Positions 5,778 to 28,337 of a stretch of DNA of 33,781 nucleotides are shown here, piece by piece. Every line of letters begins with the position of its first letter. The stretch's first letter is position 1. Source of the DNA: an uncultured Desulfobacterales bacterium (GTDB lineage Bacteria > Desulfobacterota > Desulfobacteria > Desulfobacterales > JAHEIW01); the NCBI GenBank assembly GCA_947259495.1, contig CAMYLV010000026.1, forward strand, positions 51,173 to 84,953, in the 5' to 3' direction. The position numbers were made by a program, and so were the translations under genes. The notes under the pieces were generated by a model, which saw only the letters and a program-made list of their open reading frames with translations, made no database searches and was not told the origin of the DNA.

Positions 5778-7103
5778 TTATGACTCGGCCGGGCTTAATT
5801 CCGGCTCGGGTCCGGCAGCGGACGGCTCAGGGATAACTTCCCGGGCCGCGGCTGCAGGTTCATCAATTGGGTTCAATTCCCGTTCCTGGGGGAAAATCGG
5901 CAAATAACGATATGATACTGAAATCATAATGACGCCGTAAGCCACCGGTAACAGGGTGGTGGCAACCTCCTGCCAGCTCGGCAAATAGGTAAACCAGTCT
6001 TCAAAGGTCAAAACCGGAACGGCCAGCACCTGCAGCACCATTACCCAGCGGTTCAAACACACCCCGATCACGCCTAAAAATACGGCCAGCCACAGGAAGC
6101 CCTGGATCCGGCGAAGTTTAGGCGTAATCAAAATTAGGGCCGGCAGAACTCCGCACACACCGATTTCAGCAATTAAGATCCACAGCCCATAGGCCGAACC
6201 TGGATTGTTGGTATAAAATTCCAGAAAAGTAAACCCTTTCGAAGGTGCGGTGACCGTGGCCCAGTAGATGGTGTCGATGATTTTGGCAATTATATAGAAA
6301 AATATCATCCAGCCGGATATTTTAGCCAAAAGATCAATCACGTTGTCTTTAACCAATTTTTTGCGTGTCAGGGTTTCGGTAATTTTTGTAATAAAAATGG
6401 TAAAGCAGGGGCCAAAGGCAGCAGCCGACCAGGTAAACAGGAAAAAGGTCCAGGGCCATATCAAAACCCCTTCACGAAAGCCGAAGGGGCGGCCAAACAT
6501 GACACCGGGCACCCCGCCCAGGGACCCCTGGTGAAAAAAGGACAAAAACGCACCCGTGGCGGCAAACACGGCCATGATTTCATGCATGTTGTGACCCAGA
6601 TTGTGAAAAAACGGCACTTTGTCGAGTTTGCGGTTTTCCAGCACCATGGGAATATATTCAATGGTCAGCACACCGAAATAGCAGGTCAGACAGAAAGCCA
6701 CCTCGGTCAGCATGGAGTGAACGTTGGCATGCCAGAAGATAAACCACCCTCTGAGGGGTTGCCCAATATCAAAACCCAGGATCATCAGCGCTGAACTGTA
6801 ACAGATGAATCCAATGAGCACGGCATAGTTGATAATATATTTCAACTCTTCTTTACCGACCAGATACCGTAAAAAACCGGTAAAAAAGGCGCCGCCGCCC
6901 AAAGCGATTACGGCCAGGTCGGCCCAGATCCACAGCGCAAACCCGTAAGCGTTGTTCATATTGGTCTGGTTGAGCCCTTTAATGTAGACCAGTAGCATCG
7001 CAAAAACACCCCAGGCCAGAACCGCACCATTGGCGCTAATCCACAGGGCAAATTGCCAGATTGGACATCGTTTAACCCCTTTGGGAATTAATGCAGTATC
7101 CAT
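5778..7103 (-). CDS. qrcD: Menaquinone reductase membrane subunit QrcD (NrfD family)
   Basis: The 441-residue product is an integral membrane protein with about ten hydrophobic spans, typical of the NrfD/PsrC family. In Qrc this subunit holds the menaquinone site and anchors the periplasmic subunits. Identity rests on the family-like spans, on the position after qrcC, and on the complete qrcABCD order. The start has AGGAG about ten bases upstream of ATG. Two odd points are visible: the N-terminus starts with a soluble MDTALIPKGVKRCP segment, and the last 30 residues form a Pro/Ala/Glu-rich tail (EPAAAAREVIPEPSAAGPEP). Reduction of the menaquinone pool by electrons from periplasmic hydrogenases or formate dehydrogenases through cytochrome c3 is the established role in Desulfovibrio. 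Confidence 0.92.
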   Translation of the reverse strand: MDTALIPKGVKRCPIWQFALWISANGAVLAWGVFAMLLVYIKGLNQTNMNNAYGFALWIWADLAVIALGGGAFFTGFLRYLVGKEELKYIINYAVLIGFICYSSALMILGFDIGQPLRGWFIFWHANVHSMLTEVAFCLTCYFGVLTIEYIPMVLENRKLDKVPFFHNLGHNMHEIMAVFAATGAFLSFFHQGSLGGVPGVMFGRPFGFREGVLIWPWTFFLFTWSAAAFGPCFTIFITKITETLTRKKLVKDNVIDLLAKISGWMIFFYIIAKIIDTIYWATVTAPSKGFTFLEFYTNNPGSAYGLWILIAEIGVCGVLPALILITPKLRRIQGFLWLAVFLGVIGVCLNRWVMVLQVLAVPVLTFEDWFTYLPSWQEVATTLLPVAYGVIMISVSYRYLPIFPQERELNPIDEPAAAAREVIPEPSAAGPEPELSPAES

Positions 7104-7163
7104 AAGTTCCGTGCTCCTAGAAAAAAATGATGGCTAAGATTAAAATACTCGCCCGCAAGATAT

Positions 7164-7970
7164 TTAGCTGTGGGCCTTGTTTTGGAATTCACCTTTCAGA
7201 TAGTTGTCGCCGGCCCTACGAACCCATTCACGACGGGACAAATAATAAATCTTCGGGTTGGTGCCCAGGCGTTCCAGAAGACGGAAAGCCTTGGGATTTT
7301 TAGGCCGGCCTTCGTGGGCCGGATCCGGTTGTGCCAATTGATGGACCGCGTGTTCGGGGTTATTCAAATCACCGAAGGTGATGGCGCCGGCCGGACAGGT
7401 CTCAGTGCAGGCGGTCTGATAATCATCCTCTTCGATCTCCTGGCGGCCCTCCATATAGGCCTGGTCCATGGCCAGCTGATAGCGCTGGACACAGAAGCTG
7501 CATTTTTCGACAACCCCGCGCATGCGCACCGATACGTTCGGATTGAGCATTTTCTCCATCCCATCGGGCCAGATCGGATCCCACCAATTAAACTGGCGCA
7601 CATGGTAGGGGCAAGCGCCCATACAGTAGCGGCATCCAAAACAACGCGGATAAATCTGGCTGACAATGCCCGTGGCCATATTATAGTCTGTGGCGGTTGC
7701 GGGACAAACAGACACACACGGTGAGTGCCCATGATGCCCTTCGCAATGCTGGCAGGGCCGAGGCAGGAAACATTCTTCATAGTCCGGAAACGGTTTGCCG
7801 TTATTTAGCCTGTATACATGCATCCAGGAAACGCTGAGCATCTTATCGGTATCATCTTCTCGGAACGGAATGTTGTTTTCCGCATAACAGGCAACCATGC
7901 AAGCACCACAACCGGTGCACTTGTCCAGGTCGATAACCATTCCAAACTTCTTGAAATTTCCGTTTTTCAT
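7164..7970 (-). CDS. qrcC: Menaquinone reductase iron-sulfur subunit QrcC
   Basis: The 268-residue product carries four ferredoxin-type Cys groups: Cys18/21/24/28 (CTGCGACMVAC), Cys73/76/85/89 (CQHC then CVSVCP), Cys110/113/116/120 (CFGCRYCMGACP), and Cys157/160/188/192 (CSFC then CTETCP). That gives 16 ligands, enough for four clusters; the Desulfovibrio protein is reported to hold three [4Fe-4S] and one [3Fe-4S]. It passes electrons between the QrcB/QrcA side and QrcD. No signal peptide is visible, consistent with export as a partner of the Tat-dependent QrcB. I chose the ATG at 7970, with AAGGGG just upstream, over an in-frame GTG two codons earlier. The spacing to qrcD is about 60 bases. 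Confidence 0.93.
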   Translation of the reverse strand: MKNGNFKKFGMVIDLDKCTGCGACMVACYAENNIPFREDDTDKMLSVSWMHVYRLNNGKPFPDYEECFLPRPCQHCEGHHGHSPCVSVCPATATDYNMATGIVSQIYPRCFGCRYCMGACPYHVRQFNWWDPIWPDGMEKMLNPNVSVRMRGVVEKCSFCVQRYQLAMDQAYMEGRQEIEEDDYQTACTETCPAGAITFGDLNNPEHAVHQLAQPDPAHEGRPKNPKAFRLLERLGTNPKIYYLSRREWVRRAGDNYLKGEFQNKAHS

Positions 7971-8013
7971 CAGCACCCCTTGGTCTCGACAGAATTCTTT
8001 AACTTAAAATTAT

Positions 8014-8045
8014 TTGCTTTTTATAATTTGAAACGCTCAACTCAG
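8014..8045 (+). repeat. Dispersed repeat R1, copy A, overlapping the qrcB stop
   Basis: The plus-strand sequence gctttttataatttgaaac followed by gctcaactcag matches elements at 25071-25101 (same strand) and 28763-28794 (opposite strand). The shared core on the other strand is TGAGCGTTTCAA followed by an A/T run. Here the core contains the qrcB stop codon, so the element extends into the end of a gene. Confidence 0.6.
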
Positions 8046-10244
8046 TTTGGCCCTGATCCCCCATGCCGCATTATAGCCGGAGGCCGGGTCATCAACCGGA
8101 CTGCTGAGCCGGTTGTAATTGACGCCTTTACCATCCAAAAATTTATTGTCGCCTGAATAACCCAAACCCCGGGGAAGGGCGACAAGACCGGGCATAATCC
8201 CCTGCGTCAGACGGACCTTCACCCGTGCCGAGCCCCTGGGGGTTGCCAGGTTCGCAAGACGACCCTCTGACAGCCCGAGCTGCCTGGCGGTGTCCGGGTT
8301 AATTTCCACCAGCACATCATTGCCTTTCAGGATCGTGTCTTCAAGCGCTTTTATCATAAACGGCGGTGAGCCGACATAACCGCTGGCCAGCCGCATGCTA
8401 TCATAGGGCACCAGCAGCAGCGGGTAGGCGGCTTCATCCCCTTCGGGTTTTATCGGTTCATAGGCAGCCAGCGTGCGAATATCTTTGTTGGTAAATTCAA
8501 ATCTGGCTGAATCGGTCTCAAATGCATCCGCCCATTGCGTACCGCTGTAATCGGCATTCACCCAAAAGCCGTCTTCAATCAGACCATCCCAGCGATCGCC
8601 CAGGGTTTCTTCCAGACAGCTGTTGTAATCATCCCATGCAAAGGCGGCGCCAATCGTATGGCCCAGTTCTTTGGCCAGCTGAATGACGACATCGCCGACA
8701 TGGCGGGTATTATACTGCGGCTCGACGGCTGGCTGGGAAAGGCTGATGATGGGCTTCGGAAAGCCAGGGGCGGCCGGAACATCCTGGTAGCGTTCGAGGT
8801 ACATGTGGTTGGGCAGCAGCATATCAGCCTGAGCACTGGTTTCATCCAAATAGGAGGAAAAACTGACGACCAACGGAATCTTTTCAAAGGCTTTTTTGAC
8901 GGCGGCAGTGTCCTGTAGCGAATAGACCGGATTGGCATCGTTGACAAAAAGCACCTTCAGCGGTGATTCGGCACTGGCATTGATGACCTCAGGTAGTCGA
9001 TGCAATAGATATCTGGCATTCGGATACCGGTAGGTGCCGGCACCATCGATGCGGGGTTTTTGCAGGCCCTCGGCGGCAACCGCATCGATTTCCAGCTCCG
9101 GCCAATCAATGTAATCGGGCTCGGGCACCGCCCAAACGCCCCCGGGCCGGTTGATGTTGCCCACCAGGGCATTTAAGGTGTGCACCGCTAAAAACGCCTG
9201 CAGGCTTCCGGGTACATGACCCTGGCCCTGACCGCAAATCGCCAGAGGTTTGCGGGCAGCGGCAAAATCTCTGGCAAGGGTCAAAATCGTTCCGGCACTG
9301 ATGCCGGTTATCTTGGAAACAATCTCCGGCGGGAAACCGTCAATCACCTGTTGATAACGCTCGGGTAGTCCACTGCTGTAAGCATTGACAAAATCTTGAT
9401 TGTAAAGCCGTTCTTTGATGATCACATGCGCCAGACCATAGGCCAGCGCACCTTCGGTACCGGGATTGACCGAAATCCAGTGATCGGATTTGGCCGCCGT
9501 TTTAGACAGGCGCGGCTCGATTTGATCCATGCGACCCCCGGCCTTGCGAAACATGGATTTGGCCCGAAACATGTAGCCGGGCGAGCCCCAGCCTTCGATC
9601 AGGCCGCTGCCAAAACTGAGGACAAAGTCGGCATTTTCAAGATCAAATCCGGCTCTGGAGCGAGTGCCCTGGGTCAGGTACAGCGCCAGTTCATAGGAAT
9701 CCCAGATTGACGGTGTGCGCCAGAAGTTGGGCGAACCGTAAACGGTTAAAAAGCGATTGAAAAGCTCCGGGACCGTGCCCCGATCGGAACCGGCCAGCCA
9801 GCCCACCGCTTGCGCCGATCCGTTGGCGCGCAGCTGCCGCAGGTGGGCGGCTAATTCGGTAATAGCGTCCTGCCACGATATTTGCTGCCAGCGGCCGTTG
9901 ACCTTTTTTAAGGGAGTCCGGATTCGCTCCGGACCATACAGGAGTTGGGTTCCGCTATTTCCCAGGGGGCAAAGACCCCCATCGTTTACGGGGTGCCCCG
10001 CCAGCCCCTCTATCTTGATCACCCGTTCATCTACTTTTTTAACCGAAATACCGCAACCCCCGGGGCACAGCGTGCAGGCGGAGCTAACCTGGCTGATTTC
10101 ACCTTTTGGGGGAACCGGTATCCAGGGCCAATTTTGGCTCCAGATAGCAATATCATCGGTTATTTTCCAGGGCAACGGCGACAGCGCCGTGCCGGCGGCA
10201 CCGCCGAGAATGAATGCCAAAAAACTTCTTCGATCTACTTTCAT
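8037..10244 (-). CDS. qrcB: Menaquinone reductase QrcB, molybdopterin-oxidoreductase-like subunit
   Basis: The 735-residue product begins with a twin-arginine signal (DRRSFLAFILGGAAGTALS), so it should be exported folded to the periplasm. Cys57, Cys60, Cys64 and Cys92 (CTLCPGGC, then GGLCPLG) form the N-terminal [4Fe-4S] motif of the molybdopterin oxidoreductase superfamily. Superfamily blocks such as IWSQ-type leader, GWLAGSDRG, ADFVLSFGSGLIEGWGSP and the C-terminal ARVKVRLTQGIMPGLVALPRGLG follow. Around residues 180-190, where many relatives carry a Cys or Ser metal ligand, I see DSYEL and no Cys. In Desulfovibrio QrcB no molybdenum was found, and this sequence is compatible with that. It is the large subunit of the Qrc complex and follows qrcA by about 80 bases. 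Confidence 0.93.
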   Translation of the reverse strand: MKVDRRSFLAFILGGAAGTALSPLPWKITDDIAIWSQNWPWIPVPPKGEISQVSSACTLCPGGCGISVKKVDERVIKIEGLAGHPVNDGGLCPLGNSGTQLLYGPERIRTPLKKVNGRWQQISWQDAITELAAHLRQLRANGSAQAVGWLAGSDRGTVPELFNRFLTVYGSPNFWRTPSIWDSYELALYLTQGTRSRAGFDLENADFVLSFGSGLIEGWGSPGYMFRAKSMFRKAGGRMDQIEPRLSKTAAKSDHWISVNPGTEGALAYGLAHVIIKERLYNQDFVNAYSSGLPERYQQVIDGFPPEIVSKITGISAGTILTLARDFAAARKPLAICGQGQGHVPGSLQAFLAVHTLNALVGNINRPGGVWAVPEPDYIDWPELEIDAVAAEGLQKPRIDGAGTYRYPNARYLLHRLPEVINASAESPLKVLFVNDANPVYSLQDTAAVKKAFEKIPLVVSFSSYLDETSAQADMLLPNHMYLERYQDVPAAPGFPKPIISLSQPAVEPQYNTRHVGDVVIQLAKELGHTIGAAFAWDDYNSCLEETLGDRWDGLIEDGFWVNADYSGTQWADAFETDSARFEFTNKDIRTLAAYEPIKPEGDEAAYPLLLVPYDSMRLASGYVGSPPFMIKALEDTILKGNDVLVEINPDTARQLGLSEGRLANLATPRGSARVKVRLTQGIMPGLVALPRGLGYSGDNKFLDGKGVNYNRLSSPVDDPASGYNAAWGIRAKLS

Positions 10245-10327
10245 TTAATTTTCCCTGTCAAGATGAGCACATAGATAATTGAAAACACGACCAGCCATCG
10301 AGCGGTTTACCCATCAGCAAGCATCTA

Positions 10328-11038
10328 TTAATGGTGGCATACAAAACAGCCCCCTCGCAAGGTCTGAACGCTGTTTTGATTGACGCCTTCATTGCGGTGG
10401 CATTCGGCACAATCATCCATTTTCATGCGATCCCAGGAGTTGCGCTTAATACCGGCGATATTCCTGCCCCAGATATCCCGGCTGTAGCCGGAAATGCGGT
10501 TTTCTTCATAAACCTTTAAGCTTTCCGATTCCCCGATATGCCCGTGACAGGTCACACAATCCATCTCCGCCATCTTCACATGCGCGGCGTGGGAGAAAAA
10601 TACATTCTGTGGCTGCCGCGAATAGATCAACCAGGGAACTTCCCGATTATTCGCAACATACGCGTTTACGAATTTGGCTTCTTCAGGATCTTCGCCGTTG
10701 ACCTCCTCATGGCACTCGATGCATTGGGCCAGTTTAGGTACACCGGAATAAGAGCCGTCCTCTCTGAAAAAGTGGCAGCTCTCACAACTATCTTCGACCA
10801 GCTCGTTGTGCAAAGCGTGATTGAAGTCAACGGGTTGCTTTTTCTGGGAGTAAAGCAGCTGGGGGAAAATCACCCATCCGACAATAAGACTGGCAGCCAA
10901 CCCGAGTATAAAAAAAAGAATAATGGGTCCGCCGGACCCGTTATCATCGGTTGCGGTAGATGGGCTTATTTCGGGGGGGGGTGTTGTCGGTTGCTGATCT
11001 TTCGCACTGGCCTCATTGGCTAGTTCTTCTGTTGTCAT
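10328..11038 (-). CDS. qrcA: Menaquinone reductase multihaem cytochrome c subunit QrcA
   Basis: The 236-residue product has a Pro-rich cytoplasmic N-terminus (1-37), one membrane anchor (about 38-63), and a periplasmic part with five CXXCH haem sites at 85, 106, 161, 210 and 231. Only ten Cys are present, all within these motifs, so no sixth covalent c-haem is possible. Extra His pairs (FNHALH, FSHAAH) can serve as distal ligands. QrcA receives electrons from the periplasmic type I cytochrome c3 pool. The Desulfovibrio protein is described as hexahaem as I recall, so five sites would be a difference. The start has GGAG five bases before ATG. It is the first gene of the qrc block, and resB/ccsB, needed to mature its haems, lie directly upstream. 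Confidence 0.92.
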   Translation of the reverse strand: MTTEELANEASAKDQQPTTPPPEISPSTATDDNGSGGPIILFFILGLAASLIVGWVIFPQLLYSQKKQPVDFNHALHNELVEDSCESCHFFREDGSYSGVPKLAQCIECHEEVNGEDPEEAKFVNAYVANNREVPWLIYSRQPQNVFFSHAAHVKMAEMDCVTCHGHIGESESLKVYEENRISGYSRDIWGRNIAGIKRNSWDRMKMDDCAECHRNEGVNQNSVQTLRGGCFVCHH

Positions 11039-26597: not shown

Positions 26598-28337
26598 ATG
26601 AAAATCGTTATTGCCAAAACATCCGGATTTTGCATGGGCGTTCGCCGTGCGGTTGAAATGGTGCTGGATGCCCCCGAAGAGCACCTGCATCCGATTTCAA
26701 CCTATGGTTCCTTGATCCACAATCCACAGGTTTTGGAGATTTTGGAAGAAAAAGGCATATCCGCTTTTAATGAACTGCCGTCGCAGGGTTCGGGAACGGT
26801 GCTCATCCGGGCCCATGGCGTGCCGCAGGAAACAAAAGACCAACTTGAAGAAGTGGGCTTCAAGGTTATCGATGCGACCTGTCCCCGGGTCATACGGGTG
26901 CAGACGATTATAAAAAAACACGCCAAGAAAGGATATGCATCCATTATCGTTGGTGATCTGGACCATCCGGAAGTTATCGGATTGCGCGGTTACGGCGGTG
27001 ATGAAAGCTATGTCGTTAAAAATGTGGCTGAACTGGAAGCTCTTCCCGGGTTTGAACATGCGATCATTGTCGCTCAAACGACACTCAACACGCATCTATG
27101 GAAGGCTGTCAAAAATTGGGCGGCCGCCAGCCACCCGCATTATAAAGTATTTGAGACCATTTGCGACTCCACCGAGCGCCGCCAGGCAGAGGTCCAACGA
27201 TTGGCTGAATCAGTGGATGCGGTCATTGTGGTGGGCGGCCGCAGCAGCGGAAATACGAAAAGATTGGTTGATATCGCCCGCCAGACCGGCAAACCTGCTT
27301 TTCATATCGAAAGCGAGGCCGATCTGGTCAACCTTGATCTGCAAGCCCTGACAGCATCCAGCCAGATCGGCATCACCGCCGGCGCCTCCACCCCCAACTG
27401 GGTCATTAAAAAAGTCTATCGGGCGCTGGAAGCGCTGATTTTCGAACGCAAGCAGGGCTGGCGGCGGATGGCGTTTGAAATTCAGCGCGCATTATTGTTG
27501 ACCAATATCTATGTCGCCATCGGTGCCGGCGCATTATGCTATGCCTGTAATAAACTGCAGGGTATTCATCAGACGTTTCCCTATATTTTAATTTCCATGC
27601 TCTATGTTCAATCCATGCATATCCTCAATCACCTGACTGACACCCGTGCCGATCGATACAACGATCCGAACAGGGCCAAATTTTACGACCGTTTCAAAAC
27701 CCTGCTGGCGATATTGGCAGGCCTGGCAGGCGGCACCGGACTGGTTATCGCATACAGCATCGGGGTGTTTCCATTTATGGCTTTGTTGATCATGAGCTTA
27801 TTGGGGCTTTCTTACAATCTGAAGATTTTACCGTCGTGGCTTACGGGCACTAAATATCGCAAATTAAGAGATATCCCCGGTTCAAAGACACTCTTGATTG
27901 CGGTTGCCTGGGGGATTGTTACGGCAGTACTGCCGCCGTTGTCCAAATTCGGCGGTATTCATTGGGTCAATACGCTGGTGGCGATGTGGGCCATTGGCAT
28001 CGTTTTTGTCAGAACCGCATTTTTTGATATACTCGATATGCAGGGTGATCGGCTGGTGGGCAAAGAGACCATACCGATCCTTCTGGGGGAGAAACACTCA
28101 ATGCGGCTCCTCAAAGTAATTTTGATTATACTGACTGTGGCATTGGCCGTTTTAAGTGCTTTGCACCTGACTTCAAGCCTGGGATTCGCTCTGATGTTGT
28201 GCCCGATTTTTATTGGGCTGATTATATTGGCTTACGAGCGGGCCCAGATGTTTCCGGGTATTCGCCTGGAATTTTTACTTGAAAGCCAGTTTATCCTGGC
28301 CGGCACGGTTACCTTCGCATGGGTCATGTTCACTTAG
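26598..28337 (+). CDS. ispH: IspH-UbiA fusion: HMBPP reductase plus prenyltransferase
   Basis: The 579-residue protein has two complete domains in one frame. Residues 1-282 are IspH, which reduces HMBPP to isopentenyl and dimethylallyl diphosphate. They carry the [4Fe-4S] ligands Cys12, Cys95 and Cys189, the HMBPP-binding His41, His73 and His123, the catalytic Glu125 (HPEVIG), and SSGN at 217-219. Residues 290-579 are a UbiA-type membrane prenyltransferase with about eight spans, an NxxxDxxxD motif (Asn344, Asp348, Asp352), and a DxxDxxGD motif (Asp477, Asp480, Asp484). The second domain should join a polyprenyl chain to an aromatic or other acceptor; the acceptor is unknown. A menaquinone role is possible but not shown. 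It sits one base after the NYN gene. Confidence 0.92.
   Translation: MKIVIAKTSGFCMGVRRAVEMVLDAPEEHLHPISTYGSLIHNPQVLEILEEKGISAFNELPSQGSGTVLIRAHGVPQETKDQLEEVGFKVIDATCPRVIRVQTIIKKHAKKGYASIIVGDLDHPEVIGLRGYGGDESYVVKNVAELEALPGFEHAIIVAQTTLNTHLWKAVKNWAAASHPHYKVFETICDSTERRQAEVQRLAESVDAVIVVGGRSSGNTKRLVDIARQTGKPAFHIESEADLVNLDLQALTASSQIGITAGASTPNWVIKKVYRALEALIFERKQGWRRMAFEIQRALLLTNIYVAIGAGALCYACNKLQGIHQTFPYILISMLYVQSMHILNHLTDTRADRYNDPNRAKFYDRFKTLLAILAGLAGGTGLVIAYSIGVFPFMALLIMSLLGLSYNLKILPSWLTGTKYRKLRDIPGSKTLLIAVAWGIVTAVLPPLSKFGGIHWVNTLVAMWAIGIVFVRTAFFDILDMQGDRLVGKETIPILLGEKHSMRLLKVILIILTVALAVLSALHLTSSLGFALMLCPIFIGLIILAYERAQMFPGIRLEFLLESQFILAGTVTFAWVMFT

Follow-up and report, generated by a model that had tools for sequence, protein, structure and literature searches.

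The gene described here, from an uncultured Desulfobacterales bacterium, joins IspH (LytB, the HMBPP reductase) in one reading frame to a UbiA-fold membrane domain whose catalytic aspartate set is incomplete in most of the relatives that we sampled. Intact IspH residues, the UbiA fold, descent within one clade and purifying selection on both halves were likewise observed. Our preferred explanation, to which we give a probability of roughly one half, is that the UbiA half is a repurposed module that would dock IspH at the membrane and may hold a ligand, with ordinary Mg-dependent transfer probably lost. IspH is usually described as a soluble enzyme, and 111 of 297 sampled genomes of this phylum attach a membrane domain to it. 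Should the UbiA half prove not to be a prenyltransferase, its annotation as 'UbiA family' would be misleading and the MEP pathway would have a module for attachment to the membrane; should it be one, its metal site would be a reduced one. With the counts reported below, a ten-year-old question about the role of this half becomes directly testable, and natural variants of each motif state are available for comparison.

The fusion gene and its two halves

Within the window, by which we mean the whole 33,781-nucleotide stretch that was analysed, the fusion occupies a single open frame (Table 1), and the earlier note's description of a genuine in-frame IspH-UbiA fusion is correct. The N-terminal half belongs to the IspH/LytB family, passing the cut-offs of both Pfam PF02401 (LYTB; E 4.2e-87, 292.3 bits vs. 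24.5) and NCBIfam TIGR00216 (283.5 bits vs. 187.85). The same note had called its Fe-S and substrate residues intact, and indeed C12, H41, H73, C95, H123, E125, T161/T162, C189, S217, N219, and S264 are all present and are invariant in 65 aligned fusions; their roles in the cluster and active site are assigned as in E. coli IspH. A single LYTB match, the fusion itself, and four UbiA matches were found in the window's genome (4.4 Mb in 69 contigs), the fusion being the sole HMBPP reductase detected there.

Table 1. Features of the IspH-UbiA locus, in window coordinates.
Feature	Position	Strand	Basis or remark
Upstream ORF, 177 aa	26063..26596	+	ends one base before the fusion start codon
IspH-UbiA fusion gene, 579 aa, ATG to stop	26598..28337	+	open frame; Pfam; AlphaFold2
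IspH (LytB) half, residues 3-277	26604..27428	+	Pfam; catalytic residues
UbiA-fold membrane half, residues 285-579	27450..28334	+	PF01040 311-543; model
First Asp-rich motif, N344-H-L-T-D348-T-R-A-D352	27627..27653	+	intact in window, not in most sampled relatives
Second Asp-rich motif, D477-I-L-D480-M-Q-G-D484	28026..28049	+	D484 is Asp in 105/107 fusions

The C-terminal half is a member of the UbiA superfamily by both model score and fold. It matched Pfam PF01040 with 51.9 bits against a cut-off of 34.2, and an AlphaFold2 run that included 65 fusions gave a model of the whole protein (mean pLDDT 93.1, pTM 0.88) that Foldseek matched to solved IspH and UbiA structures; the UbiA half modelled alone reached a pLDDT of 92.1. 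When this model was compared with solved structures by VIA-align, the substrate-bound UbiA of A. pernix (4od5) gave Z 20.5 (255 residues, rmsd 2.9); soluble prenyl synthases scored lower, with a Z of 16.3 at most. The archaeal UbiAs of A. pernix (4od5/4od4) and A. fulgidus (4tq3/4tq4), with Z of 20.5 and 19.6 over 255 and 265 residues, thus resemble the half in fold, and the window's protein carries the same kind of Asp-rich motifs; unlike the fusion, they are stand-alone proteins, share only 13-14% identity with it and differ from most sampled fusions, which are without the full Asp set. A profile of the UbiA half searched against the sequences of solved structures found no match up to E 1.

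Distribution and descent of the fusion

IspH-UbiA has been described before. In the passages of Rao et al. (2015; PMC4746011) that treat it, it is named a Rosetta stone protein and represented by 47 sequences, mainly from Desulfobacterales; the UbiA half, of unknown function and with two DXXXD repeats, is filed as PT_UbiA_5, separate UbiA/MenA proteins are noted in the genomes, a local supply of IPP/DMAPP and prenyl transfer are inferred, and it is stated that active full-length protein could not be expressed. The window's protein is of this type, with UbiA on the C-terminus of IspH in a sulfate-reducer-type deltaproteobacterium, and agrees with the published account, as far as those passages go, in domain order, bacterial group (Desulfobacterales), a function not known, and expected membrane location. 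It differs in that the Asp set was found here to be incomplete in most sampled members, in the wider spread (107 fusions with 46 family labels vs. 47 sequences) and in the natural losses that we found. The same source describes IspH-RPS1 fusions, in which an N-terminal IspH is likewise joined to a full domain in anaerobes, the partner being ribosomal protein S1 repeats rather than a membrane domain. Both the architecture and the local-supply idea are therefore already in print (PMC4746011), and the supposition in the earlier note that similar fusions may exist in related bacteria turns out to have been published since 2015 and to apply widely in the phylum. Literature searches on IspH-UbiA, and on IspH with UbiA in sulfate reducers, returned only Rao et al. 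and one later paper citing it; these searches found no report of the residue erosion, of the counts across the phylum or of the natural losses, all of which are new here.

LYTB was found in 278 of the 297 sampled genomes of the phylum and the UbiA half, at E up to 1e-5, in 111. In 106 of these 111, it lies in one stop-free frame with IspH, which rules out a frameshift or assembly artefact joining two genes, the case that the note had said would undo its claim. The five genomes for which no fused frame was shown comprise G078, G113, and G191 (partial matches, not fetched), G278 (contig edge) and G022 (internal stops). These five were kept out of the set of 107 fused halves compared below, which consists of the other 106 plus that of G065, a member of family f38, and covers 46 family labels. 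Exactly one LYTB match occurs in 106 of the 111 genomes, two occur in G135, G236, and G271, and none in G113 and G278. A second LYTB match is present in addition to the fusion in G135 (contig C153) and in G271, so an extra IspH can coexist with it.

Among the best 80 of 310 relatives of the UbiA half, the closest are L137 (84% identical) and L136 (81%). Most of the 80 come from uncultured Desulfobacterales, and all of their titles are deltaproteobacterial, Desulfobacterales, Thermodesulfobacteriota or unspecific. In a quick tree of IspH, 66 fused proteins grouped with the IspH of G015 (support 95) and were separated from 20 unfused ones; the two f32 rows fell outside this group, weakly placed. 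The corresponding quick tree of UbiA placed the 44 tested fused halves on one branch (support 100), together with the long-branched stand-alone L049 of G030, and the other 70 stand-alone UbiAs on the opposite side. L049 (8091-8954) has a complete Asp set. The metagenome-assembled genome CSMAG_771 contains two different IspH-UbiA genes on two contigs, L136 and L181, one with Asp and one with Gly at position 348, which may represent either two copies or a mixed bin.

Aspartate motifs, selection, and natural losses

In solved UbiA structures, prenyl diphosphate and Mg are seen at the motifs NDXXDXXXD and DXXXD (PMC7839719), and a review of archaeal lipid synthesis (PMC9385802) lists alanine mutants of D66, D70, D180, D183, and D187 in the UbiA-superfamily enzyme MjDGGGPS as strongly reduced in activity. 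By motif order, these correspond to D348, D352, D477, D480, and D484 of the window's protein, the numbering in the source not being fully consistent; the register at both motifs is supported by profile alignment to stand-alone UbiAs. Asp occupies all five positions in only 1 of the 107 sampled fusions, that of the window, and positions 348, 352, 480, and 484 are all acidic in 12. Taken singly, N344 is kept in 94 of the 107, D348 in 84, D352 in 15 (with Glu in six more), and D480 in 66 (with Glu in 10 more), and at position 477 there are 75 with Asp and 30 with Glu. Of the two acids of the first motif, 72 fusions have only the first, eight only the second, 13 both, and 14 neither. The catalytic Asp set of the window is thus not a family feature.

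Stand-alone UbiAs served as controls, for the first motif only since their second motif aligned more poorly (Asp in 83/92 and 84/92 at two columns). The 92 proteins, nearly all from genomes that also have the fusion and not picked blind, comprise three from the window's genome, 29 of 30 returned loci (L223 was left out, its frame not having been recovered) and 60 picks among the matches listed. Asp stands at the first position of the motif in 90 of the 92 and four to six residues further on in 92 of 92. With the same spacing of +4 to +6 allowed, both acids are present in 91/92 controls vs. 19/107 fusions, a comparison for which the Fisher p ignores relatedness. The exceptions at the first Asp are L329, with Glu, and L003 (1438-2394, minus strand of G000:C8), another UbiA-type protein encoded in the genome of the window, which has Gly and reads NDVVGYRSD there. 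L003 adjoins a 256-aa ORF that looks cytochrome-b5-like by eye, and Asp is retained at the first position in the nine control proteins with which L003 groups.

Among the best 80 of 310 relatives, Gly stands at position 348 in 77 (Asp in two, Glu in one), Asp at position 352 in 77, and the set reads NGDDDD or AGDDDD in 74, four of the five Asp being fixed. Beyond this group, the usual pattern of the first motif is reversed, with the first acid kept and the second not. L136 and L137 have every canonical Asp, as does the window. The earlier note had seen a full membrane prenyltransferase with both Asp-rich motifs: the domain is full and the motifs are intact in these three proteins, but the description does not extend to the family. 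In a quick tree, the window is nested among Gly-348 rows with a branch support of only 80-81, and its full Asp set may be a reversion or a late survivor. It is possible, though somewhat less likely than not, that the clade as a whole switched from a prenyltransferase to a non-transferring, isoprenoid-related membrane partner of IspH, the window's set then being a reversion. Fold and conserved core would have stayed under selection as some of the metal-binding aspartates were given up, and the half would dock the last MEP-pathway step at the membrane or hold a ligand for it.

Both halves are under selection of about the same strength. Over 68 pairs that are 80-97% identical (69 were drawn), the median dN/dS was 0.136 for the UbiA half and 0.121 for IspH; these are simple Nei-Gojobori values from pairs that share ancestry, and they include some repeats, as the identical values for G072 and L162 show. 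The window compared with L137 gave 0.108 and 0.091, respectively. The purifying selection on the UbiA half is thus about as strong as that on IspH, and each of H341, Y406, W438, R472, D484, G488, T491, and G497 is retained in 103 to 106 of the 107 fusions. Low dN/dS and kept residues indicate that the UbiA half is not simply decaying, even though its conserved core falls short of the complete textbook metal site.

Natural losses of the half were nevertheless encountered. G015 has no match to it at E 1e-5, and its IspH nests in the fused clade; we read it as an IspH that probably lost its UbiA half. A different IspH fusion in G015 was considered and ruled out, since upstream its long frame shows a codon-position GC that belongs to a different frame. 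In G022, one TGA and one TAA interrupt the UbiA half while the IspH frame is intact, and sequencing error is possible. All seven genomes of family f38 keep a fused half, at 33-100% identity to that of G065, in which the first motif and DIPGSKT are gone and E-x-x-Y-x-Q-T/S-D-G-F-L-P and RPLGQ are kept; G065 itself went into the search HMM, so that L266 and L267, which are near-copies of each other, do not provide independent matches. Pfam gave no match for the G065 half. Between L266 and L268, dN/dS was 0.17 for the half and 0.07 for IspH, and two more f38 pairs gave 0.46 for the half, one with very low dS. The losses in G015 and G022, the decayed motifs of f38 and the faster change of its half relative to IspH would fit a pure passenger, an ancient accidental fusion that left a neutral membrane anchor now on its way out. 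Elsewhere, however, the half is nearly as constrained as IspH, and H341, Y406, W438, R472, D484, and T491 are each conserved in at least 103 of 107 fusions, making such an origin improbable as a general explanation.

The repurposed reading is favoured because the Asp residues essential in MjDGGGPS are incomplete in most sampled fusions and nearly all controls keep both acids of the first motif, because the half is constrained all the same, and because it was lost or eroded in G015, G022, and f38. Several observations argue against it. The window, L136, and L137 retain every canonical Asp, so the window's copy could be catalytic; four of five Asp fixed in the nearest relatives (best 80 of 310) suggest a conserved, altered metal site rather than decay; and at least one acid of the first motif is present in 93/107 fusions, D484 in 105/107, and Gly also occurs in the stand-alone L003. 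Judging from these residues, the window's own protein is more likely to be active than most of its relatives.

These same observations bear on the alternative of an active prenyltransferase, in which the UbiA half would work with a modified site, perhaps one with a single metal, and IspH would supply it locally with DMAPP or a short prenyl diphosphate. This corresponds to the Rosetta-stone idea as worded in the relevant passages of Rao et al. (PMC4746011), and the earlier note had proposed a similar IspH-fed transfer. It is consistent with the fold match to the substrate-bound A. pernix UbiA, with retention of N344 and D484 in most fusions and of all five Asp in the window, and with strong purifying selection on the half. 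The reading of the half as an ordinary transferase is nevertheless weakened, because most sampled relatives lack part of the metal-binding set, including residues on which MjDGGGPS depends, in a domain that purifying selection still maintains; the loss of the half in G015 and its motif-stripped state in f38 also count against it. We regard an active transferase as a real but less likely alternative.

Possible roles of the UbiA half and its genomic context

Under our preferred reading of a repurposed module, the UbiA half would, family-wide, no longer be an ordinary Mg-dependent polyprenyl transferase, and would instead dock IspH on the cytoplasmic face of the membrane. The conserved H341, Y406, P427/S429/K430, W438, R472, D484, E490, T491, and E558 perhaps form a pocket for a prenyl diphosphate or lipid-like ligand, and docking might keep newly made IPP/DMAPP near the enzymes that build polyprenyl chains.

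A more specific suggestion in the earlier note was a MenA-like role that would link the fusion to the menaquinone pathway of the Qrc respiratory complex. The half shares the UbiA superfamily with MenA, its D480-xxx-D484-R aligns with the second motif of L002 in a profile alignment, and genes for NrfD, Fe-S, molybdopterin, and cytochrome c3 proteins lie in the window at 5778-11038, a set that we take to fit a Qrc-type menaquinone complex. However, a separate MenA is encoded elsewhere in the window's genome: L002 scores 350.7 bits on the NCBIfam MenA model NF004751 against a cut-off of 264, where the fused half reaches 19.3, and L001 exceeds the cut-off of TIGR00751 (128.7 vs. 102.15), a model that did not list the fused half at E 0.001. 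The fused half falls below the cut-off of every NCBIfam prenyltransferase model and, in a quick tree, branches apart from L001 and L002. A MenA function of the half is accordingly highly improbable. The note had also asked for separate menA and ispH genes, and in the window's genome the former is present as L002 and the latter is not, LYTB being found only in the fusion. PF01040 matches were obtained in 59 of 59 genomes searched. Among the matches listed, G206 has a single weak one, presumably its own fusion, and each of the seven f38 genomes has a single strong match, the frames being 288-327 aa long.

The surroundings of the fusion vary between genomes. In the window, its neighbours are ParA- and ParB-type genes, a Smr-like ORF, and the 177-aa upstream ORF, which has no NCBIfam match and has relatives in 3 of 19 other loci compared. 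Antisense frames aside, the most widely shared neighbour family, of a general regulator type by eye, occurs in 8 of 20 loci, and since no family exceeds this count, the repurposed reading is again favoured. Two loci point the other way, as the fusion there adjoins isoprenoid genes as a working enzyme might. In G030 (L048 7121-15164), genes for an XseA-like protein (by eye), a polyprenyl synthetase, dxs, a TlyA-like protein, and PF04240 precede IspH-UbiA in the same direction. In G048 (L261 1795-9488), a cluster of carotenoid type, with genes for a squalene/phytoene synthase, an amine-oxidoreductase-type protein, an acyltransferase, a glycosyltransferase, and PF04240, is followed by IspH-UbiA.

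PF04240, a carotenoid-type family (CruF type) whose co-occurrence would point to C5 carotenoid elongases of the LyeJ/CrtEb type, is present in 16 fusion genomes, and in 12 of these no more than about 2 kb separate it from the fusion (the distance in G236 was estimated); this proximity, with the G030 and G048 clusters, might favour an active transferase. Against this, PF04240 is no commoner with the fusion (16/111 genomes) than without it (28/186), and is absent from the window's genome and from 95 of the 111 fusion genomes. Of 20 PF04240 neighbourhoods retrieved, about half contain neighbours that look by eye like hopanoid genes. Within four genes of PF04240 in these 20 neighbourhoods, the only UbiA match was the fusion itself, in L261. 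PF04240 was considered as a general clue to the acceptor and dropped, since its presence does not track the fusion; it serves as a local clue in G048 and G030, whose neighbourhoods are local hints of isoprenoid work and not of a shared acceptor. The PF04240 gene of G048 carries an in-frame TGA in the genome search.
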